This document shows positions 3,950 to 37,132 of a stretch of 58,648 nt of DNA, one piece after another. How positions within the stretch are numbered: the stretch's first letter is position 1; every line of letters begins with the position of its first letter. Source of the stretch: Phycisphaeraceae bacterium (GTDB lineage Bacteria; Planctomycetota; Phycisphaerae; Phycisphaerales; SM1A02); assembly GCA_004213555.1 (NCBI GenBank), contig SHAP01000012.1, positions 1 through 58,648 on the forward strand, given 5' to 3'. The translations under genes were made by a program, and so were the position numbers. Under the pieces are notes generated by a model that did not search any database, had not been told where the DNA came from, and saw only the letters and a list, made by a program, of their open reading frames with translations.

Positions 3950-4012
3950 GATTTGGTCCTCCTCAAGAGTCTTACAAGGTATCCGGTCGCTGCTCTATAG
4001 GATGTTGATTTG

Positions 4013-6817
4013 ATGAACCGTTCAGAGTTGATCCATCGCGGCTGGCATGAACGCTCGATCTACGCCACCGATGCCAGCATGTACCGCGAGGTGCCCAGCG
4101 GTATTGCGGCTCCACGTGATGGGGAAGAACTCCGACAAATTGTGGCAGAGACTGCCAAACACAACGAGCCCATTCTGGCCCGTGGCGCGGGATCCTCGCT
4201 GGCTGGGCAAACGGTGGGGTCTGGGGTCGTGCTCGATTTTTCTCGGCACATGCATCAACTCCTGAGCCTCGACCCCATTCGTCAATCGGCATGGGTGCAA
4301 CCGGGGCTGGTCTTGGATGAACTCAACCGCCAGGCCTCGGCCCATGGGCTTCTTTTTGGACCAGACGTTTCAACCAGCACGCATGCAACTTTGGGGGGCA
4401 TGATTGCCAATCGATCTGCCGGGTCGTACTCCCTGAAATATGGGATGACCGACGAACATGTCATCGCTTTGGATTGTGTTCTCGCGGACGGGACCAAACT
4501 CAGATTTCAGAAAGGCGCGAGCCGCCAAGATCCTTTGGTCGAACAGTTGACGGCCGAAGTGGCCAAAATTGTCTGGTCGGTAGAAAACGAGATCGATCAA
4601 AGATTCCCCACCACGAAGCGAAATGTCGCGGGATACGCACTGGACGATGTTTTGGCTCAACTTCGCTCCAGCACACCAGGAACCTTCGACCAAGTCAACC
4701 TCAGTTCCTTGATCTGTGGGTCTGAAGGGACGTTGGCTCTGATTGAAGGAGCGGAAGTTCATTTGGTGAAGGCACCGGAACGCACCGAGCTGCTGCTTGC
4801 GTCTTTTGCAGATGTTGACCAAGCGTGTGATGCATTGTTGCATTTGGTGGCCACCAACCCAGCGGCGGTGGAACTGATTGATGCCAACGTCATTCAGGCT
4901 GCCAAAAGTCAAGGTGGGTTCTCCATCATTCTTGACAAACTGCCGGCCGATGGTGCATTGGTTTATCTGGAATATCACGACCAAAGCACGGAACCCGCCG
5001 AAGCTCTGCTTCGCCAGCGAGGCATCGACTCACACAAACCAGTTGACAGTACAGAGGCAAAACTGTTCTGGCGACTGAGGAAAGAAGGACTGGGCCTGAT
5101 TGGCAAGCCATCTGAAGGCAAAATGCCCATTGCTGGTTTCGAAGACTGCGCTATTCCACTCGAACGATACGCCACGTTCCGAAGAGCCTTTGCCCGTCGA
5201 TTGGAAAGAGAACAACGAGAGGCTGTTTGGTACGCCCACGCATCGGTTGGCCTGCTGCATGTGCGTCCTAGGTTTGATCTTCGGGAGGAAATGGAACAAG
5301 AACATTGGGAGTCCTTGGCCCAAGACCTCACGCAACTTGTGATGGAGCACGGCGGCACGGTCTCGGGAGAACATGGTGATGGTCGCATTCGTGCCAAAAT
5401 GGTGCACGACATGCTGGGGCCTCGAATCATGGAGGCCATTCGAAAAATCAAACAGGTGTTTGATCCTGGACAGAGACTCAACCCAGGAAATATCGTTGAG
5501 CCGAGGCCAGCCTTGGTGCCCCTTCGCATTGACGGGCGCCATCAACCGCTGACCGAGCCCGAGGTCACAACGTTTTGGCATTGGCCCGAAGGACTCGCCA
5601 CCGCCACAGGGTCGTGCAACGGCAACGGCCTCTGTCGAAAAGAAACCGGCGGGGCCATGTGCCCTTCTTGGCGTGCCACCAGGGAAGAACGTCATGCCAC
5701 CCGCGGGCGAGGCAACGCGCTGCGTGAAGCGATCATCGCGGGACCAGAGCCCAATTTCAGCGATCCTGATCTTCTGCAGACGCTCGATCTTTGTTTGTCG
5801 TGCAAAGCTTGCCGACACGAGTGCCCCGCCAATTTTGATGTCTCCAAATTCAAAAGTGAAGTGTTGGCCCAACATCATCAGCAACAAGGCACGCCGCTAC
5901 AGGCCAAGCTGTTCGGCAGCATTCGCCCGCTGGCGCGAATCGGATCACGCTTGCATCGATGGATCAATCCAATTCAGAACTTGCCCGTGGTGCGGTATTT
6001 CACAAACCACTGGCTGAATCTTGCTCCCGGTCGGCCATTGCCAAACTTCTCAAAATCACTTTTTCGACGAAGGAAGCCAAATGGGCCGAATACGAGTCCC
6101 AGTGTGATTTTGATGGCCGACTGTTTTTCCTGCTTCTACGACTCAGATCTTGGACTGGCGTCCATCCAAATCTTGGAAGCTTTCGGGTACCAGGTGGTCT
6201 TGAAAGACGTTGGTTGTTGTGGACGCACCAATATTTCGGTTGGGAGGCTCGGAGCGGCTCGAAAGAACATCGAACAAACCGCTCCGGCTTTGGAAGAACT
6301 TCGAAAGCAACACAATGCTGTGGGTGTTGTGGTACTGGAGCCGTCTTGTGCCAGTGCGATGCAGGAAGACTGGGGAGAACTCAAGACCGACGTTCCAGTA
6401 TCAACCACCCGATCCCTTGCCGCCAACACCGCCAACCTCGAATCCTTCCTGCTCACCCACTGGGACCAACACCCGCGCCGACCTGATTTCACCCCCGACC
6501 AGCGAGCCGTGGTGGTGCACACCCACTGCCATGCCAAACATGAGGGCCCCGTGGTCGCAGAGCTTTTGCAAAAACTAGGATTCTTGGCCACCGAAGTGGA
6601 CTCTGGTTGCTGTGGATTGGCGGGATCTTTTGGTTATCGCGCCGAGTGCGATGACGTGTCTCGAGCCGTTGCAGAGCAGTCACTTGGCCCCCACCTCCGT
6701 GCTCATCCGGAGGCTCTGGTGGTCGCCCATGGCACCTCGTGCCGACATCAAGTCAAAGATATTTTCTCCCGAGAAGTCATCTCTCCTACAGAACTTTTGG
6801 CCAGAGCGCTGGCTTAG
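4013..6817 (+). CDS. FAD-linked oxidase fused to an Fe-S (CCG-domain) module, YdiJ / D-2-hydroxyacid dehydrogenase type
   Basis: A 934-residue fusion. The N-terminal half is an FAD_binding_4 domain (GAGSSLAGQ around 63-71 contacts FAD) followed by an FAD-oxidase C domain containing GEHGDGR. The C-terminal half carries cysteines for two 4Fe-4S clusters, including CLSCKACRHECP, and two CCG motifs (DVGCCGRTN and DSGCCGLAG) typical of GlpC/GlcF-like subunits. The family oxidises D-2-hydroxyacids such as D-lactate or D-2-hydroxyglutarate and passes electrons to a membrane carrier; which substrate applies here is not visible. ATG 4013 is preferred over the TTG three bases earlier because AGGA lies just upstream. 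The gene is divergent from ppgK, with 63 bases between start codons. Confidence 0.88.
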   Translation: MNRSELIHRGWHERSIYATDASMYREVPSGIAAPRDGEELRQIVAETAKHNEPILARGAGSSLAGQTVGSGVVLDFSRHMHQLLSLDPIRQSAWVQPGLVLDELNRQASAHGLLFGPDVSTSTHATLGGMIANRSAGSYSLKYGMTDEHVIALDCVLADGTKLRFQKGASRQDPLVEQLTAEVAKIVWSVENEIDQRFPTTKRNVAGYALDDVLAQLRSSTPGTFDQVNLSSLICGSEGTLALIEGAEVHLVKAPERTELLLASFADVDQACDALLHLVATNPAAVELIDANVIQAAKSQGGFSIILDKLPADGALVYLEYHDQSTEPAEALLRQRGIDSHKPVDSTEAKLFWRLRKEGLGLIGKPSEGKMPIAGFEDCAIPLERYATFRRAFARRLEREQREAVWYAHASVGLLHVRPRFDLREEMEQEHWESLAQDLTQLVMEHGGTVSGEHGDGRIRAKMVHDMLGPRIMEAIRKIKQVFDPGQRLNPGNIVEPRPALVPLRIDGRHQPLTEPEVTTFWHWPEGLATATGSCNGNGLCRKETGGAMCPSWRATREERHATRGRGNALREAIIAGPEPNFSDPDLLQTLDLCLSCKACRHECPANFDVSKFKSEVLAQHHQQQGTPLQAKLFGSIRPLARIGSRLHRWINPIQNLPVVRYFTNHWLNLAPGRPLPNFSKSLFRRRKPNGPNTSPSVILMADCFSCFYDSDLGLASIQILEAFGYQVVLKDVGCCGRTNISVGRLGAARKNIEQTAPALEELRKQHNAVGVVVLEPSCASAMQEDWGELKTDVPVSTTRSLAANTANLESFLLTHWDQHPRRPDFTPDQRAVVVHTHCHAKHEGPVVAELLQKLGFLATEVDSGCCGLAGSFGYRAECDDVSRAVAEQSLGPHLRAHPEALVVAHGTSCRHQVKDIFSREVISPTELLARALA

Positions 6818-25180: not shown

Positions 25181-27319
25181 TTAAGCCCGCCGCTCCGCGG
25201 CGGTTGGTTGGTCACAAGATATCAAGCCCACCGACTCAAGATCGATGCTGCGGTCAATCTCGTTGAACCCCACAACAGAGGCTTCGATCCGGTGAGATTC
25301 CAAAATCCGAACCAAGCCCAGTCGAACCGCGGGAGATGCCACAACCACGGGCAGATACCCCAGATCGAGCAACTTGGGCAACGCGTCTCGGGTGCCTCGA
25401 GCAATGGTCTCAATGCGATCGGGCGCGAGGCCAATCTGGATGCCCGCCCCCGTACGCTCGATGCCTGCGGTCAACTCTGCCTCGAGTTCTGGCGCGATCG
25501 CCAAAGCTCGAATTCTCCGGGTGCCGTCGGCTTCGTCGGTGGCCAACCGAGCGGTGATGGTCCGGCCAAGGGCATTCCGAACGTATTCCAAAAGCACGTC
25601 GGGATCCTTGGTGTGCGGGGCCCAGTCGCCCAAGGTTTCCACAATGCGTTCCAAATCCAAAATGGGCACCCGCTCGGCCAACAGCCGCTGCAGCACCGCC
25701 TGAAGCTCGCCGAGCTTGATCACCGCCGGGATGGTTTCTTCCACCAACTTGGATCGCCGGGCCTTCAAATCCTCGACCATGTCGGCCACCGCTTGTCGGG
25801 TCAGAATTTCGTCGGCATGCTGCAACGCCAATCCATGCAAATGCACCGTCAACACGCTTGCTGCCTCGACGACGGTCCAATCCCCTGCCTCGGCCTCGGT
25901 GCGACGTTCTGGATCGATCCACATCGAGTCCAATCCGTAACAAGGGTCGCGTCCGGGCACCCCATCCAGCGGTGCCGAATGGGGGCCAGCGGGGATGGCC
26001 ATCAATTTGCGGGGGTGAATTTCACCACGGCCGACAGATTCACCACGCAAGCGAATTCGGTATTCGCGTGGTCGCAACGATTGATCGTCCCGAACACTGA
26101 CCCCGGGCAAGATCAACCCAAACTCGGCCGCAATTCGATTGCGCTGTTGTCCAATGCCCATCACGATGGGTCCATCCGCGCCAGCCAAACCCAGCAAAGC
26201 CGTCCCCAGATCAATTTGCAGCTCGGAAATTTGGGCCAGCCGTTCGGGAGTCACGCTGTCATTGGCAGGGGCTTCTCGGGGTGCCGCCCGCTCGGAAGCT
26301 CGCTGGGCTTCTGCTTGCGCGTCGCGCCCCGCCCATGCCACAAAACCAAGGCCCAGAGCACCGGCCAACAAAGGGACCGTGGGCAGAGGAGTGATGGCCA
26401 GCAAACCAAGGAAGATCGAGATGAACAACAAGGCCTTCGGGCGGGCGGCCAATTGTTCAGGGATCCGATCACTGATGGTGCCTTCGTCCCCCCCGCGTGC
26501 GATCAGCATGCCCGCAGCGGTCGCGATCAAGAATGCCGGCACTTGTGCCGCCAGACCATCACCAATGGTGAGACGCGTAAATGCCGACGCGGTCTCGCCA
26601 AAGGTCCAGCCCTTCAGCCAAACGCCCACCAAAATACCACCCACCAAGTTGATCCCAGTGATGATCAATCCTGCAACGGCGTCTCCCCGTACAAATTTCG
26701 AGGCACCGTCCATCGCACCATAAAAGTCGGCCTCGGCGGTGATTTCCCCACGGCGTCGTGTGGCTTCCTGCTCGTCAATCAGGCCTGCCGACAAATCTGC
26801 ATCGATGGCCATCTGTTTGCCGGGCATGGCGTCAAGCGTGAACCGCGCTGTAACTTCACTCATTCGGGTTGCCCCTTTGGTGATCACGACAAACTGCACG
26901 ATGACCAAAATTGCAAAAATGATGAACCCAACGATCAACGAACCTCCGGCCACAAACCCACCAAAGCCAGAAATCACCGCTCCGGCCACTTCCCCTACGG
27001 CCGCAGGAGAACTGGCGTCGGCACCCAAGATCAAGCGGGTTGACGCAATGTTGAGCACCAAGCGCAGAAGGGTGGTGCCCAACAGCAGCGCGGGAAAGGA
27101 AGAAAATTCCAACGCCTTCCGTTGGGTGATGGCATTGATCAACATCAACGACGCAATGGCAATATTGGCCACCAACAACAAGTCAAGGATGGCCGCCGGC
27201 AAAGGCACAACCAGAACGACCAGCAGACCAAGCACTGTGGCGGGCAGCAGCAAGTCGCGCCGCGCCCCAAAGGCGTCGCCGATCTTGCGTGCGGTCTGAC
27301 TGAGCCGATCCGTTGGCAT
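25181..27319 (-). CDS. flhA: Flagellar export gate protein FlhA
   Basis: A 712-residue protein of the export gate. The N-terminal half contains about eight membrane helices; the conserved FHIPEP-region sequence is visible as RMSEVTARFTLDAMPGKQMAIDADLSAGLIDEQEA, read here in short pieces. The C-terminal cytoplasmic domain (from about residue 340) binds chaperone-substrate complexes in known systems. It lies between flhB and flhF on the same strand, with 29-base spacers on each side. Confidence 0.97.
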   Translation of the reverse strand: MPTDRLSQTARKIGDAFGARRDLLLPATVLGLLVVLVVPLPAAILDLLLVANIAIASLMLINAITQRKALEFSSFPALLLGTTLLRLVLNIASTRLILGADASSPAAVGEVAGAVISGFGGFVAGGSLIVGFIIFAILVIVQFVVITKGATRMSEVTARFTLDAMPGKQMAIDADLSAGLIDEQEATRRRGEITAEADFYGAMDGASKFVRGDAVAGLIITGINLVGGILVGVWLKGWTFGETASAFTRLTIGDGLAAQVPAFLIATAAGMLIARGGDEGTISDRIPEQLAARPKALLFISIFLGLLAITPLPTVPLLAGALGLGFVAWAGRDAQAEAQRASERAAPREAPANDSVTPERLAQISELQIDLGTALLGLAGADGPIVMGIGQQRNRIAAEFGLILPGVSVRDDQSLRPREYRIRLRGESVGRGEIHPRKLMAIPAGPHSAPLDGVPGRDPCYGLDSMWIDPERRTEAEAGDWTVVEAASVLTVHLHGLALQHADEILTRQAVADMVEDLKARRSKLVEETIPAVIKLGELQAVLQRLLAERVPILDLERIVETLGDWAPHTKDPDVLLEYVRNALGRTITARLATDEADGTRRIRALAIAPELEAELTAGIERTGAGIQIGLAPDRIETIARGTRDALPKLLDLGYLPVVVASPAVRLGLVRILESHRIEASVVGFNEIDRSIDLESVGLISCDQPTAAERRA

Positions 27320-27348: not shown

Positions 27349-28431
27349 TCATCGCGCCTCCGCGCCCCGAACGCCAGTCAGGTCACGACCCTGCAGCTTC
27401 CAAACGTACGCCAGCACTTCCGCCACGGCTTCAAAGTGGGTCACCGGCACTGGATCACCCACCGCCACCTCACGCCAAAGGGCTCGAGCCAGGGGCGGCC
27501 GCTCCAGCACCGGCACGTCGTGTTCCAAGGCCAAACGGCGAATACGAAAAGCCAAATCATCAGCCCCTTTGGCGCACACCACCGGAACATCGGTTCGCCC
27601 GGGCTCGTACCGCAAGGCCACCGAAAAGTGGGTGGGATTGGTCACCACGACGTCGGCCAGTGGCACTTCTGATTCAATTCGTTGACGCGCCAGTTGGCGG
27701 TGAAACTGCTGCCGGCGCGATTTCATCTGCACGTCACCCTGCAGTTCCTTGGATTCATCACGAACTTCCTTTTTGGTCATGCGCAACTTCTTGCGGTGCT
27801 GTTTGCGTTGCCAAACAAAATCAATGCCGGCCAACAACACCAACATGAGCAGCATGGCCGCCGCGGTTTCCATCAAAAGCTGGAAGGCCAAGACCATGCC
27901 CGGCTTGATTTCGAGTTGCAAAACCGAACGAATCGCATCCTGCCGCCAAGCCAAGTGCGCTCCTGCCACCAACAGCAACAGCATCACTTTTCCAGAATCC
28001 AGCGCCCCACGGACAAAACCCTCTGGCCCCAAGATTCTCTGAAGCCCCTTGACAGGATTCAATTTCTCGGGCTTGAACCCAATGGTTTTGGTGGTCGGTC
28101 GGAAGCCGACTTGTAAAAAACCACCCGCAGCCGCCAAAAGCGTGACCAACCCAGCCACCGGAAAAACCACCAACGCAAACCCAAGGCCTGCATCTCGGAA
28201 GCTGCGCAAACCATCGTCGAACCCCCCCGTGGCACGATTCAATCCAAAGGCCAGCCAATCTTTCAAAAGTCCCGTCCCAAAGATCGCCAACAACATCAAA
28301 GCAACCGTGCCCGAGAACAAAACGACAAAGGACGCAAAATCTTTGCTCCATGCCACTTGGCCTTCGTCACGCGCCTTGTTCATTCGGTGTGCGGTCGGCT
28401 CCTCGGTTTTTTCTCCAAGTTCTTCCGCCAT
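27349..28431 (-). CDS. flhB: Flagellar export switch protein FlhB
   Basis: A 360-residue membrane protein with four hydrophobic helices and a cytoplasmic C-terminal domain. VVVTNPTHFSVALRY contains the NPTH motif, where FlhB cleaves itself between Asn and Pro to switch export from hook to filament proteins. The N-terminus (EKTEEPTAHRMNKARDEGQV) is typical. Its ATG shares one base with the fliR stop codon (TGATG). Confidence 0.97.
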   Translation of the reverse strand: MAEELGEKTEEPTAHRMNKARDEGQVAWSKDFASFVVLFSGTVALMLLAIFGTGLLKDWLAFGLNRATGGFDDGLRSFRDAGLGFALVVFPVAGLVTLLAAAGGFLQVGFRPTTKTIGFKPEKLNPVKGLQRILGPEGFVRGALDSGKVMLLLLVAGAHLAWRQDAIRSVLQLEIKPGMVLAFQLLMETAAAMLLMLVLLAGIDFVWQRKQHRKKLRMTKKEVRDESKELQGDVQMKSRRQQFHRQLARQRIESEVPLADVVVTNPTHFSVALRYEPGRTDVPVVCAKGADDLAFRIRRLALEHDVPVLERPPLARALWREVAVGDPVPVTHFEAVAEVLAYVWKLQGRDLTGVRGAEAR

Positions 28432-29204
28432 CAGTCCGCTCCCGCCAAAATACGAACGCTGTCGATCATGTCACCCGCGAACGCTTGCCAAGGGCCAGCA
28501 ATCGCCGGCAGAACCAAGACAAAGACCAACAAGCCGATTGGGATCCGAACCAAGAAACCCACACTCAAAATGTTGATTTGAGGCACCGACCGGCCCAGAA
28601 ATCCCATCAAGATCGTTTGGGCCAGCACAATGGTCAGCACTGGCAGGGAACAGCGAAGCAACACTTCAAAAGCTCCATCGAGCAACGCTGGGATGGCCTC
28701 GGTCATCAATCCCATATCCAACATCACCCCAGGAGGAAAGCGATCCATGCCCTCACGTACGGCCATAAAGAGGGCCTCAGGCACGCCGAGGACCACAAAG
28801 AGGCCCAGCGCGAGAGCGGCCATAAATCTGCCGGTGGTGTCCACCTCTTCGCCCACGTTGGGGTCGTACAACGTGGCAAACCCCAAGCCAATCTGCTGCC
28901 CCGAAACCAAACCCACGCCCTGCAGCGCGGCAATGGGAATCAAAGCCAAAAGACCCAGTGCCGCCCCATAGACGAGTTCAAAGCCCGACAGCACACCCAA
29001 TTCCAACAACGTGTTGGGGCTCGGCCCCAGCGTCTCCACCGAACCAAACGCCACCACGCCCAACATCACCCCGAGCAGCACCCGCACCACACCCGGGACC
29101 AATGGACTGGAGACACCAGGCGCGACGAACAGCAGACCCGCCCCGCGACAACCCGCCAGCATCAGGCCCGGCACCGCTCCGGCGTACTCGGCGAAAGCGC
29201 TCAT
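28431..29204 (-). CDS. fliR: Flagellar export gate protein FliR
   Basis: A 257-residue, very hydrophobic protein with about six helices, including GAALGLLALIPIAALQGVG and the conserved QQIGLGFATLYDPN. FliR forms the core of the export gate with FliP and FliQ. Its start overlaps the end of fliQ by four bases. Confidence 0.95.
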   Translation of the reverse strand: MSAFAEYAGAVPGLMLAGCRGAGLLFVAPGVSSPLVPGVVRVLLGVMLGVVAFGSVETLGPSPNTLLELGVLSGFELVYGAALGLLALIPIAALQGVGLVSGQQIGLGFATLYDPNVGEEVDTTGRFMAALALGLFVVLGVPEALFMAVREGMDRFPPGVMLDMGLMTEAIPALLDGAFEVLLRCSLPVLTIVLAQTILMGFLGRSVPQINILSVGFLVRIPIGLLVFVLVLPAIAGPWQAFAGDMIDSVRILAGAD

Positions 29205-29461
29205 CCAAAGATGTCCGGTGCGAACATGGAACGGGTGAAGTCACCAAGACGAGCGACCATCCAGCCCAACAGCAACACCGCGACCACAATCATGGCGACC
29301 AGCTTGGGAAGAAAGGAGAGCGACTGTTCTTGCACGCTGGTCACGGCTTGACCAATGCTGACGATCAACCCAACCACCAAGCCAATCCCAAGGATTGGTG
29401 CCAACAACAAAAGCGTTTCCATCAACGCACCGCGAGCTGGGTCCAACAGCATGCCCGTCAT
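29201..29461 (-). CDS. fliQ: Flagellar export gate protein FliQ
   Basis: An 86-residue protein with two membrane helices. LLLLAPILGIGLVVGLIVSIG and QAVTSVQEQSLSFLPKL are the standard FliQ pattern. It overlaps fliP and fliR by four bases on either side, so translation is tightly linked. Confidence 0.96.
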   Translation of the reverse strand: MTGMLLDPARGALMETLLLLAPILGIGLVVGLIVSIGQAVTSVQEQSLSFLPKLVAMIVVAVLLLGWMVARLGDFTRSMFAPDIFG

Positions 29462-30294
29462 CCAAAGCCACCGATCATGGAGGAAAGAGGATCTGCCACC
29501 TGCCCCAGGATCCCTACCGAAAGCAACGTCCAGCCGTCCACCAACACAAACAGCAAGAGTTTGAATGGAAGCGAGACCAATACGGGCGGCAGCATCATCA
29601 TTCCCATCGAAATCAGAATGCTGGAAACAACAAGATCAATCACCAAGAAGGGCAGTGCGATCTTGAATCCCACGATGAAGGCCGCCCGCAGTTCACTCAG
29701 CATAAACGCCGGCACCAAGGTCAAAGTGGGGACATCGTCGTAGGCAACAATGGTGGGATCGGTGAGATCCATGCCACGGTGCTCCAGCAAGGCGTACAAC
29801 GCGCTCCAGCCACCCGTGGCATCGATCTGAGCAAACATAAAGTCGCGCATCGGACGCTCACAATTGGTCCACGCAACACGGTAATCCGGCTGTTCATCGC
29901 TCACAAAAGGCTGAACACCATCGGACCAAACCCGTTCCAACGTCGGCGCCATGGCGTACAGCGACAGAAACAAAGCGAGTCCCGTGAGAACTTGCCCAGG
30001 CGGCAACCCTTGGGTGCCAATGGCTTGTCGCAACAAACCCAAGATGATCACCACCCGAGTGAAGCAGGTGCACATCAGCAGCACGCTCGGAACGAGCGTA
30101 AGGACGGTGAGCATCAGCAAGATGTTCAGAAGTCGGCTTCGACCCTCAGCCCCCTCCCCCATCAAGGCCGCAGATGCCTCATCCAAGGCCACCAAAGGAT
30201 TGCTTGGATCGCCCAATGGATTGTCCACGACCGATTGGCCAAACGTCCCGGTCGCTGGGATCAAGCAACACAGGATGAGCAGACCAAGTTTCAC
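29458..30294 (-). CDS. fliP: Flagellar export gate protein FliP
   Basis: A 278-residue protein with a signal peptide (cleavage likely after TGTFGQ) and four membrane helices. CTCFTRVVIILGLLRQA, LALFLSLYAMAP and LVPAFMLSELRAAFIVGFKI are strongly conserved. FliP builds the central ring of the export gate with FliQ and FliR. The start overlaps the stop of the fliO frame by four bases. Confidence 0.97.
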   Translation of the reverse strand: MKLGLLILCCLIPATGTFGQSVVDNPLGDPSNPLVALDEASAALMGEGAEGRSRLLNILLMLTVLTLVPSVLLMCTCFTRVVIILGLLRQAIGTQGLPPGQVLTGLALFLSLYAMAPTLERVWSDGVQPFVSDEQPDYRVAWTNCERPMRDFMFAQIDATGGWSALYALLEHRGMDLTDPTIVAYDDVPTLTLVPAFMLSELRAAFIVGFKIALPFLVIDLVVSSILISMGMMMLPPVLVSLPFKLLLFVLVDGWTLLSVGILGQVADPLSSMIGGFG

Positions 30295-30995
30295 GCGGTA
30301 ATCCGTACCCTTCGCCCCTTGGTCAGATCAACCACCACGCCACGCTTGGGGCGATTCGATCGCTCCGCCGGCTGCGAAGTGGTCTCCACCAGTGCGGCAG
30401 GACGAGGACGACGGGTTCTTCCAGAATCGCCTTGGGTCGCCACCGCTTCGAGGGTTTGGCGGAACGCATCACGGTCTGGCTTGCCCTCAATGGCTTCCGT
30501 GATTCGGGCCAGTGTCGTCAAATCGTCGACCTCGCACAGTCGGTTCCATCCCTGACCCGCGTCGTGACACAGGAGCATGCGGCGGTCAAATTTCACCAGA
30601 ATCAACCGCTCCCCTTTGGCAACAGGCCAGCGGGCCACAATTTCCACCACGCCTGAGGGACCCGAAGAAGCACGCTGCCGAACTTTCCGAGGCAACTTTG
30701 ACAGCACCAAGACCGCCAAAAGGAGCACCCCAGCCGTTGCGGCCGCAAGACGGATCAACGCGGAATTGGCCAAGGACATGGTCTGGCTTTCCACCCCGGG
30801 ACCGTTGCGGGCCGGCAATGTTGGAACATTGAACGCCGGCGGAACCGGCAAGACTTCAGGAAGAGTGAGTTCTTCTGGACGATCTGGAGCCACAGACTCT
30901 TGTGGAATTGCCGGAACAACATCCGACGCCTGAGGAACCGCGGCCTCAGCCGACGGCAGAGCCAATCCCGAGGGGGCCGATTCCACCGACTCCAC
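30291..30995 (-). CDS. fliO: FliO-like export accessory protein, cut off from its signal peptide by an in-frame TAG
   Basis: A 234-residue frame, if the GTG at 30995 is used, with a single membrane helix at about 78-97 (ALIRLAAATAGVLLLAVLVL) and a cytoplasmic part (VEIVARWPVAKGERLILVKFDRRMLLCHD...GWNRLCEVDD) that matches FliO. FliO is a helper that stabilises the FliP ring. The first 70 residues are Pro- and Val-rich and would be the periplasmic part. Upstream and in the same frame is a clean signal peptide (31109 to 31002), followed by TAG at 30999-31001, then CCA and this GTG. The gene is therefore either interrupted, or restarted after the stop. Confidence 0.8.
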   Translation of the reverse strand: MESVESAPSGLALPSAEAAVPQASDVVPAIPQESVAPDRPEELTLPEVLPVPPAFNVPTLPARNGPGVESQTMSLANSALIRLAAATAGVLLLAVLVLSKLPRKVRQRASSGPSGVVEIVARWPVAKGERLILVKFDRRMLLCHDAGQGWNRLCEVDDLTTLARITEAIEGKPDRDAFRQTLEAVATQGDSGRTRRPRPAALVETTSQPAERSNRPKRGVVVDLTKGRRVRITA

Positions 30996-30998
30996 TGG

Positions 30999-31109
30999 CT
31001 AAGGCAAAACGAAAGAAACGGGACGGTTGGCCCTTGCCTCTTCGGCCTGGGCAGCATTTGCCGCCAGGACTAAGGCCACGAGAACACTTGCTTGTTTGAT
31101 CCATGCCAT
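30999..31109 (-). pseudogene. fliO: Signal-peptide fragment of fliO ending in TAG
   Basis: Thirty-six codons beginning MAWIKQASVLVALVLAANAA, a textbook signal peptide with cleavage likely after AQA, then EEARANRPVSFVLP and TAG. GAAGG lies nine bases before the ATG. The fliO body continues in the same frame directly after the stop, so this is most simply the 5' end of fliO separated by a nonsense change. TAG also ends the FAD/Fe-S and serB-like genes here, so it is an ordinary stop in this genome. Confidence 0.7.
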
Positions 31110-31127
31110 CCTGGCCATCCTTCAATT

Positions 31128-31255
31128 TCAGAATGACGCCTCCGCGCCACCCAAACTGCTCTGCATTCCGTCCGCGCTGCCGAACTTCTCTCAAATTCTC
31201 TCCGCGCTGCCCAGAATTTCTCTCAGATTCCCTCCGCCGCCCGTCCCAAAATTTC
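31128..31255 (-). repeat. Four degenerate tandem copies (about 32 bp) at the 3' end of fliN
   Basis: Copies at 31221-31255, 31189-31220, 31160-31188 and 31128-31159. Read on the minus strand, the common core is GAAnTT-TGGG-GCGCGGAG-GAAT-TGAGA. The first copy encodes the last residues of FliN and its stop codon; the others follow in the spacer toward fliO. The fourth is the weakest match. Confidence 0.65.
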
Positions 31256-34812: not shown

Positions 34813-36051
34813 TCAGGGGGAATCCTCAACGCGTTTGGCCGAACGAATGATGACTTGCTCCTCGGGTACGTCGCGCATTCCGCGACGAACCGTCGTGCGC
34901 TCCTTGGCGATGGCATCGATGGTGCTCATCCCTTCAACCACCCGACCAAAAGCGCAATACGGGCCATCGTCCAAGAAGGCGTTGTCTTTGTGGTTGATGT
35001 AAAACTGACTGGTGGCCGAGTCCGGAGCAGAAGTTCTCGCCATGGCGATGGTTCCGCGGGTGTTGCGGATGGGGCCCAGTCCTGATTCGTTTTGAATGGG
35101 GCCTCGGGTTTCCTTACGCCGCATTTCTGTGTCAAATCCACCGCCTTGGACCATGAACCCAGATATCACACGGTGGAACAGGGTGTCTTCGTAGAAGCCT
35201 GCATCGACATAAGCCAAAAAGTTGCGGCAAGTGATGGGATAATTTTCCGGATCAACCTTGACCACAAACGCGCCAAGATTGGTTTCAAACCGCACCAAGA
35301 CTGGAGTTGTCGATGCCTTTTTTGATTCGTCGACCTCCGGAGTCGCCGGGGCAACGGGCCCATCATCCTTGCCTTGGAACGTCACGGTTTCATCTGCTTC
35401 AGACATGTTGAATCCAATGACATTGGTACGCCCCAGGGCATCGGTCCAAGCCATGTTGGTCAAGGGAACAACTCCACCCACTCGACCCTCCGGGCGGATC
35501 ACACGCATTCCGGGGCCACTGAAGCCCACGCGCCGCTTGCCATACCGCCAGACCACCTTGCCTTGGTTGCCATTGCTCATGATGGTCCCACCGGACAAGG
35601 CCGAGTCGCCTTTGCGAGGAAGTGATTCCACAATCACGTCCGCAGCTCGGCAGGCCAAGGGAGATCCTTGGAACACCAAGACATCTTCGGAATTTCGTTC
35701 CGGGTGCCGTTGGGTCAGCCGCACCAATCCTTCCTGAAGCTCAAAGACACACTGACCTTCTTGATCTTCCAAACGTTTGATGGTCGTGTTGAACCCGAGC
35801 AGCATCACATCGGTTTGGCCAGGCTGAACACCATCCCAACGCCATTCCAAGCAAGCCCGACCTTCGGCTTGGGTTTGCAAAACACTGCCCACCGGGACCA
35901 CACTGCCTTCTCGACACTTCAACGAGGTCCCATCGGCCGCCTGAAGCACGGGGGAACTCTCAATCATCCGAATTCGCACCGTTTCACCACGGCTGGCGGC
36001 CGAGAGCAAAAGGATGGTCAAGAACATCGAGAACCGTTTCGTGAGGATCAT
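34813..36051 (-). CDS. Exported cyclophilin-type peptidyl-prolyl isomerase with an extra N-terminal domain
   Basis: A 412-residue protein with an N-terminal signal peptide (MILTKRFSMFLTILLLSAASRG). The first 240 residues form a beta-rich domain (VRIRMIESSPVLQAADG, SLKCREGSVVPVGSVLQT) resembling FecR-type repeats. The last 160 residues are a cyclophilin domain (FETNLGAFVVKVDPE, LFHRVISGFMVQGGGF, ATSQFYINHKDNAFLDD, YCAFGRVVEGMSTID) with the catalytic Arg in FHRV. It would help periplasmic proteins fold. Divergent from the TPR-protein gene, with 34 bases between start codons. Confidence 0.88.
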   Translation of the reverse strand: MILTKRFSMFLTILLLSAASRGETVRIRMIESSPVLQAADGTSLKCREGSVVPVGSVLQTQAEGRACLEWRWDGVQPGQTDVMLLGFNTTIKRLEDQEGQCVFELQEGLVRLTQRHPERNSEDVLVFQGSPLACRAADVIVESLPRKGDSALSGGTIMSNGNQGKVVWRYGKRRVGFSGPGMRVIRPEGRVGGVVPLTNMAWTDALGRTNVIGFNMSEADETVTFQGKDDGPVAPATPEVDESKKASTTPVLVRFETNLGAFVVKVDPENYPITCRNFLAYVDAGFYEDTLFHRVISGFMVQGGGFDTEMRRKETRGPIQNESGLGPIRNTRGTIAMARTSAPDSATSQFYINHKDNAFLDDGPYCAFGRVVEGMSTIDAIAKERTTVRRGMRDVPEEQVIIRSAKRVEDSP

Positions 36052-36085
36052 TTGTTCACTCCTGAAGTCAATTACAGTACCGGCA

Positions 36086-37132
36086 ATGCGGACTGGATTG
36101 TTCATCTTGATTCTCGCAGTCACGAGCCAAACGGCGTTTGGGCAGGCGTACCGCCTCAACGACGAGGATGGTTGGTCCCCGCTCCCCGAACCCGCCGCAG
36201 GATCGGCCGAAGAAGGGCTGCGAAATGCAAGAAGAGCGATCGCGAGAGAAGCTTGGGATCAAGCGGAGACCATTTGTCGCGATTGGCTGACCCGGTTCAC
36301 CTCCACCGCCCGCATTCGACCCCTTCTTGGAGATCAAGACGTGCCCGTGGTCCAAGTGGAGCAAGCCCAATCTCCTCTGGTTGGTGAAGTTCGACTGCTG
36401 CTTGGCGATGCGTTGAGGGCACGAGGAGAGCTGTACCCCGCCGCCGTTGAATACGAAACGGTGGCCCGCTCCTATCCGGACTCTCCGGCTTGGCTCGATG
36501 CCGTCGAACGGTGTTACGAAATCGCGGTCATCTGGTCCAAAAAAGAACCCGAATTTCTCCTGGGTATTTTCCCCGTCTCGGACTGGACCGAAGAGGTCGA
36601 AGAACTTCTGATCAGAGTTCAAGAACGGGTTCCTGGAAGCATCTTGGCAGAACGGGCAGGGTTTGCCTTGATGGAGTTTTATTTCCGCGAAGAGAATTAC
36701 CGCCTCACCGCCGACATGGCGGCCATTGTTTTGGAAAACCATCCCACCACGCCACAAGCGGATCTGGCCCGACGCCGCATTGTTGATGCCAACCGGCGTT
36801 TGTGGAAAGGACCAGAGAATGATCTCTCGGGCCTTGAAGAAGCCTCATCCATCTTGAGTTATTTCATGGCCGAGGATCCGGTCGCCGCCCAACGCATCGA
36901 CAGCGCGCAGCAATTTCGTGAGGTTCAAGAAGATCTGGTGCAATCCGAGTGGTCAACCGCCCAGTGGTACCTTCGCTCTGGAGATCCTATCAGTGCGGCG
37001 TATGAAGTCAGCCGTTTGGCCGACCGGTACGCTGAAACCACCCTTTGGCCAAAAATCAAAGCTTGGGCCACCGAACAGGTTCGGCCGCTGATTCCCATCC
37101 CGTTGCGCTCGTTGGTGGATGACTTGCCATGA
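36086..37132 (+). CDS. Exported TPR protein, BamD-like
   Basis: A 348-residue protein starting with a signal peptide (MRTGLFILILAVTSQTAFGQ), then helical repeats of the TPR type (GDALRARGELYPAAVEYETVARSYPDSPAWLDA; RAGFALMEFYFREENYRLTADM). BamD/YfiO-like proteins help insert outer-membrane proteins. No lipobox Cys is visible, so it is not a canonical BamD lipoprotein. It overlaps the LptE-like gene by four bases, which supports an outer-membrane role. Confidence 0.7.
   Translation: MRTGLFILILAVTSQTAFGQAYRLNDEDGWSPLPEPAAGSAEEGLRNARRAIAREAWDQAETICRDWLTRFTSTARIRPLLGDQDVPVVQVEQAQSPLVGEVRLLLGDALRARGELYPAAVEYETVARSYPDSPAWLDAVERCYEIAVIWSKKEPEFLLGIFPVSDWTEEVEELLIRVQERVPGSILAERAGFALMEFYFREENYRLTADMAAIVLENHPTTPQADLARRRIVDANRRLWKGPENDLSGLEEASSILSYFMAEDPVAAQRIDSAQQFREVQEDLVQSEWSTAQWYLRSGDPISAAYEVSRLADRYAETTLWPKIKAWATEQVRPLIPIPLRSLVDDLP

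Follow-up and report, generated by a model that had tools for sequence, protein, structure and literature searches.

The window, the whole 58,648-nucleotide stretch of Phycisphaeraceae bacterium contig SHAP01000012.1 (assembly GCA_004213555.1) that was analysed, carries fliO on the reverse strand directly upstream of fliP in a flagellar export-gate cluster, in which fliQ, fliR, flhB, and flhA then follow (Table 1). The fliO frame opens with an ATG, and 8 bases 5' of it lies a Shine-Dalgarno-like AAGGA whose bases are identical in the window and in three congeners; the first-pass annotation had given the gene its own ribosome binding site, and the region has a duplex energy of -7.9 kcal/mol. 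The 36 residues before the stop (MAWIKQASVLVALVLAANAAQAEEARANRPVSFVLP) comprise a signal peptide, recognised by eye, followed by a few more residues. As that annotation had also described, an in-frame TAG stands behind the signal peptide in the assembly and the frame continues past it, with a GTG one codon after the stop. The intervening codon is proline (CCA), and 235 sense codons remain open from the TAG to a terminal TGA.

Table 1. Features of the interrupted fliO gene and of the export-gate genes downstream (window positions).
Feature	Positions	Strand	Basis or remark
Shine-Dalgarno-like AAGGA of fliO	31118..31122	-	sequence; region duplex -7.9 kcal/mol
fliO frame (interrupted)	30291-31109	-	ATG start 31109-31107, TGA end 30291-30293
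fliO 5' segment, signal peptide plus few residues, 36 aa	31002..31109	-	translation; signal peptide by eye
Premature in-frame TAG	30999..31001	-	sequence; sense in 3/3 congeners and 31/31 full-length relatives
GTG put forward as restart, judged weak	30993..30995	-	no Shine-Dalgarno pairing
Variable Pro/Glu-rich linker	30780..30998	-	low conservation; putatively periplasmic
Shine-Dalgarno-like stretch before internal ATG	30784..30799	-	-9.5 kcal/mol
Internal in-frame ATG, codon 111, predicted short-FliO start	30777..30779	-	invariant Met
FliO core, membrane helix and cytoplasmic domain, TGA end	30291..30779	-	TIGR03500 match; most conserved part
fliP, intact, GTG start	29458..30294	-	PF00813 and TIGR01103 over cut-off; no stop against congeners
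fliQ, intact	29201..29461	-	PF01313
fliR, intact	28431..29204	-	PF01311
flhB, intact	27349..28431	-	PF01312
flhA, intact	25181..27319	-	PF00771

The name FliO is supported by the gene position and a predicted membrane helix. The family match to TIGR03500 (FliO) covers residues 90-154 of the 234-aa body (E 5.2e-5, 23.2 bits, against a curated cut-off of 55.25). An AlphaFold model of the body places a helix at residues 72-99 and strands at 118-145 with a mean pLDDT of only 42.7, and a hydrophobic stretch lies shortly past codon 111 of fliO. The position ahead of fliP, an apparent membrane helix ahead of a cytoplasmic part, and the weak family match are shared with FliO as defined by TIGR03500; the differences are that a signal peptide and a variable Pro/Glu-rich linker precede the core and that the N-terminal part is, in this genome, cut off by the TAG. 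The linker is the least conserved part of the protein, with a mean identity of 0.45 to the nearest database protein (P0001) vs 0.83-0.94 for the other regions. The available part of PMC12403147 calls FliO poorly conserved and its annotation inconsistent, and also describes FliO proteins with N-terminal extracytoplasmic AMIN/LysM domains. These likewise have an extra part ahead of the membrane helix, whereas here that part is a low-conservation linker and a Pfam search of the 234-aa body gave no match.

Matches to fliO were sought in 61 genomes and, separately, in a protein collection, and were found in 50 of the 61 genomes (the organism's own included in both counts) and in 37 database proteins. 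The three other genomes of the genus (G001, G002, and G003) are all open through the TAG site, and the 31 database proteins that cover it all have a sense residue there (24 Glu, 3 Ala, 2 Lys, and 2 Ser). The two sides of the TAG align to a single continuous protein in all three congeners and in 31 of the 37 database matches, so the interruption is more than chance. The other matches lack the N-terminus (P0011, P0032, P0034, and P0036) or are frame-shifted at the site (P0035 and P0037); P0011 (196 aa) starts within the linker and may be another interrupted allele. P0034-P0037 are broken, frame-shifted FliO pieces of other metagenome contigs that look like indel errors in assemblies, and P0035 and P0036 both list a longest contig of 376268.

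Over the 36 N-terminal residues the nearest protein, P0001, has the same sequence, and apart from the stop it departs from the window only at residues 72, 89, and 115; it is listed without a source and so may not be independent of this assembly. P0003, 97% identical, comes from a named MAG. There are thus intact fliO alleles closely similar to this one, and the stop is seen in this sequence only. As the relatives are uninterrupted at the site, the TAG points to a private, recent nonsense allele or to a consensus error. Relatives that all share the stop and have a separate fliO elsewhere, named in the first-pass annotation as a refuting observation, were not seen: the relatives examined are open, and the genome (91% complete as assembled) gave a single fliO match and no second copy.

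A nonsense mutation in this strain, one of two explanations first offered, is the best supported, since the codon is open in relatives and the genome, 91% complete, gave a single match to fliO. We put at roughly 0.6 the probability that the TAG is a private, likely recent nonsense mutation of this strain in an otherwise ordinary fliO, one that would abolish the full-length, signal-peptide-bearing protein. Assembly or consensus error over an intact fliO is the main rival, and we hold it to be rather unlikely. Genes within 8573-41403 (33 kb) were compared with the congeners in 67 rows, G002 covering only the part from 29461 on, and fliO was the only congener-supported gene judged interrupted; the remaining stops in the 67 rows were placed by eye before a start codon or in antisense or non-coding frames. 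This comparison bears on both readings, since a sole interruption judged real suits an error, while 33 kb checked against congeners with no other interruption speaks against one, and the assembly appears clean on this comparison, though a single base is not proven by it. The TAG is one base from the relatives' sense codons, all 31 full-length relatives are intact, a nearly identical intact protein exists in P0001, and other assemblies hold clearly broken FliO pieces (P0034-P0037), all of which would fit an error. Long-read errors are, however, more typically indels than substitutions, and four other equally coding-like TAG sites, among 139 in 258 kb, read as gene boundaries.

Taken as a strain-level nonsense allele, the fliO stop is ordinary, and it resembles those generally known from motility genes in affecting one codon in one genome with intact neighbours; it is unlike them in that a conserved internal ATG and Shine-Dalgarno-like sequence could soften the effect. 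Two flagellin matches were found elsewhere in the genome. The dN/dS of the fliO body against G002 is 0.20, vs 0.03-0.12 for neighbours, and the body exceeds fliP, motA, and motB in all three comparisons. By these values fliO evolves fast. Relaxed selection was considered and dropped: the window is one partner in each of the three comparisons, and the divergence may for the most part be older than the stop, so dN/dS gives no date for it.

Stop codon usage was taken from a simple codon-score gene caller applied to the window and to a 200-kb sample. The 36 genes called in the window end in TGA (26), TAA (9), or TAG (1) and the 111 in the sample in TGA (77), TAA (27), or TAG (7); overall TAG ends 8 of 147 called genes and is a real stop but the rarest. 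The sole TAG-ending gene called in the window (4010-6817) encodes full FAD-oxidase domains and weaker Fe-S domains. No CUA anticodon was found among 39 tRNA genes of the 91%-complete assembly (ARAGORN anticodon readings; 30 tRNAs as loci and 9 further ones), and a CUA tRNA in the missing part is possible. An RF1-like gene with an open frame at C1:197022 scores 335 bits to prfA (cut-off 423) and 187 bits to prfB, below the curated prfA cut-off yet far nearer prfA than prfB. TAG codons with 30 codons ahead of them and 60 behind were also scanned over 258 kb, with a sensitivity sufficient to flag the stop in fliO; of the 139 sites obtained, five, fliO included, are at least as coding-like on both sides as fliO. 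No other TAG-interrupted gene was recognised in the 258 kb, the further four sites (window 3998, L090:14125, L092:1877, and L093:8350) being gene boundaries by eye. The TAG at L090:14125, followed by 666 open codons, was considered as a second case and rejected, as it reads as the end of one gene, presumably a prephenate dehydratase, with another gene in the same frame.

The first-pass annotation had argued against recoding from the use of TAG as a normal stop by other genes; the argument holds and gains from the RF1-like gene and from a tRNA set in which no CUA anticodon was found, its soft point being that TAG is the rarest stop. TAG recoding or suppression was rejected on the tRNA set, the RF1-like gene, TAG usage, and the lack of other interrupted genes, and recoding in this genome is very unlikely. 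That this particular TAG is read through or recoded to give full-length FliO is barely credible: it would suit the rarity of TAG as a stop (8/147 called genes) and the intact frame downstream, and it is opposed by zero CUA anticodons in 39 tRNAs, by an RF1-like gene that favours prfA (335 vs 187 bits) though under the prfA cut-off, by a TAG that terminates the 4010-6817 gene with its full FAD-oxidase domains, by the failure to recognise any further TAG-interrupted gene in the scan, and by relatives without the stop. prfB (RF2) was not found in this genome (G000) though TGA is the commonest stop; prfB is over cut-off in two of the four genomes of the genus, and the G000 copy probably lies in the 9% that the assembly lacks.

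The other explanation first offered was that ribosomes terminate at the TAG and restart at the adjacent GTG, yielding a FliO without its signal peptide. A review reports that ribosomes restarting after termination use the first start codon with a Shine-Dalgarno-like sequence ahead of it, and that their scanning radius exceeds 40 bases (PMC5972666, available part). The GTG, 3 bases past the stop, is within that radius; it has no Shine-Dalgarno pairing (+0.7 kcal/mol, against a mean of -3.3 for 1000 random positions), on which the same source reports strong dependence. This codon is GTC in two of the three congeners, and a FliO begun there would need to get a linker of about 72 residues across the membrane with no signal peptide. 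Restart here is therefore highly improbable, and the ATG at 30779 is, by its genus-invariant methionine and its upstream sequence, the better candidate for an internal start.

This ATG lies 219 bases past the TAG and seven residues before the most hydrophobic stretch, and its methionine (codon 111) is invariant in all 25 genus-level rows of an alignment of the window with 24 of the 37 database proteins (A2). It was singled out with its Shine-Dalgarno energy already known; that energy is -9.5 kcal/mol in the window and -6.4, -8.6, and -6.9 kcal/mol in G002, G001, and G003, respectively. The fliO start itself (-7.9) has a weaker value than this ATG in the window, and so do seven of eight other starts (fliP -5.0, fliQ -6.2, fliR -3.2, flhB -7.0, fliN -9.3, motB -7.1, and motA -5.9 kcal/mol), with only flhA (-11.4 kcal/mol) above the ATG. 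Among 98 internal ATGs in 15 genes that are conserved in all congeners available, it ranks third, or fourth by mean energy, with a Fisher P of 0.0025 uncorrected and about 0.25 after correction for 98, which is not significant; the second-ranked ATG is inside fliP, and the first is codon 37 of the gene at 34813. In that gene (window 34813-36159) the codon 37 ATG, with a strong Shine-Dalgarno sequence, is kept in four genomes and is probably the true gene start.

Synonymous-codon P values for the codon-111 signal, in the window, G002, G001, and G003, are 0.115, 0.081, 0.067, and 0.012, and in a second run 0.139, 0.087, 0.027, and 0.021, for genomes that share ancestry. The in-frame TTG at codon 131, inside the helix, also reaches -8.3 kcal/mol, and 5% of random positions reach -8.4 kcal/mol. 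At distant loci (L005-L030) an ATG occurs in the scanned 25-codon stretch in 7 of 26, the strongest at -5.3 kcal/mol, so the start signal would be at best a genus-level feature. The evidence for codon 111 as the internal start of a short FliO is suggestive only.

Ribosomes scanning on from the TAG would probably find this ATG too far, while fresh ones could use it, and since it adjoins the hydrophobic stretch a product begun there would be the core alone. In Salmonella, residues 22-95 of FliO are reported as most important and the periplasmic N-terminus as non-essential, from plasmid-expressed truncations, and deletion of fliO drastically lowers motility (available part of PMC2947984); the predicted short product would match the part that matters most there. 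In C. jejuni the N-terminal AMIN domain of FliO does matter, as far as the available text of PMC12403147 goes, which counts against a short core being sufficient. A broader proposal, which we consider distinctly doubtful, is that fliO in this genus is a two-product gene giving a long signal-peptide FliO and, from the internal ATG, a short core like that of enterobacteria, with the TAG as a natural knock-out of the long form alone.

For the preferred nonsense allele, ribosomes terminating at the TAG would release a 36-residue peptide, and the adjacent GTG, lacking a Shine-Dalgarno match, would support reinitiation only inefficiently. A short core FliO with the membrane helix and cytoplasmic domain could still arise from fresh initiation at 30779, so that assembly of FliP and the export gate may be reduced, perhaps not lost. 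The Salmonella residue data (PMC2947984, available part) and the low conservation of the linker lead us to expect export-gate assembly that would be impaired rather than absent. The GTG start of fliP at 30294 shares 4 bases (GTGA) with the end of fliO, and a polar effect of the premature stop on fliP is plausible; it would be partial, because fliP has a moderate Shine-Dalgarno match of its own (-5.0 kcal/mol).

The stop is thus probably an ordinary, recent nonsense allele, with assembly error as its main rival and the internal start as the only novel lead. The case raises the possibility that an internal start can yield the membrane-anchored core of a signal-peptide FliO by itself; if true, this would reveal whether this FliO requires its long N-terminal part. 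Upstream of the gene, about three imperfect tandem repeats of 30-32 bases (window 31139-31237) lie between fliN and fliO and extend into the end of fliN.
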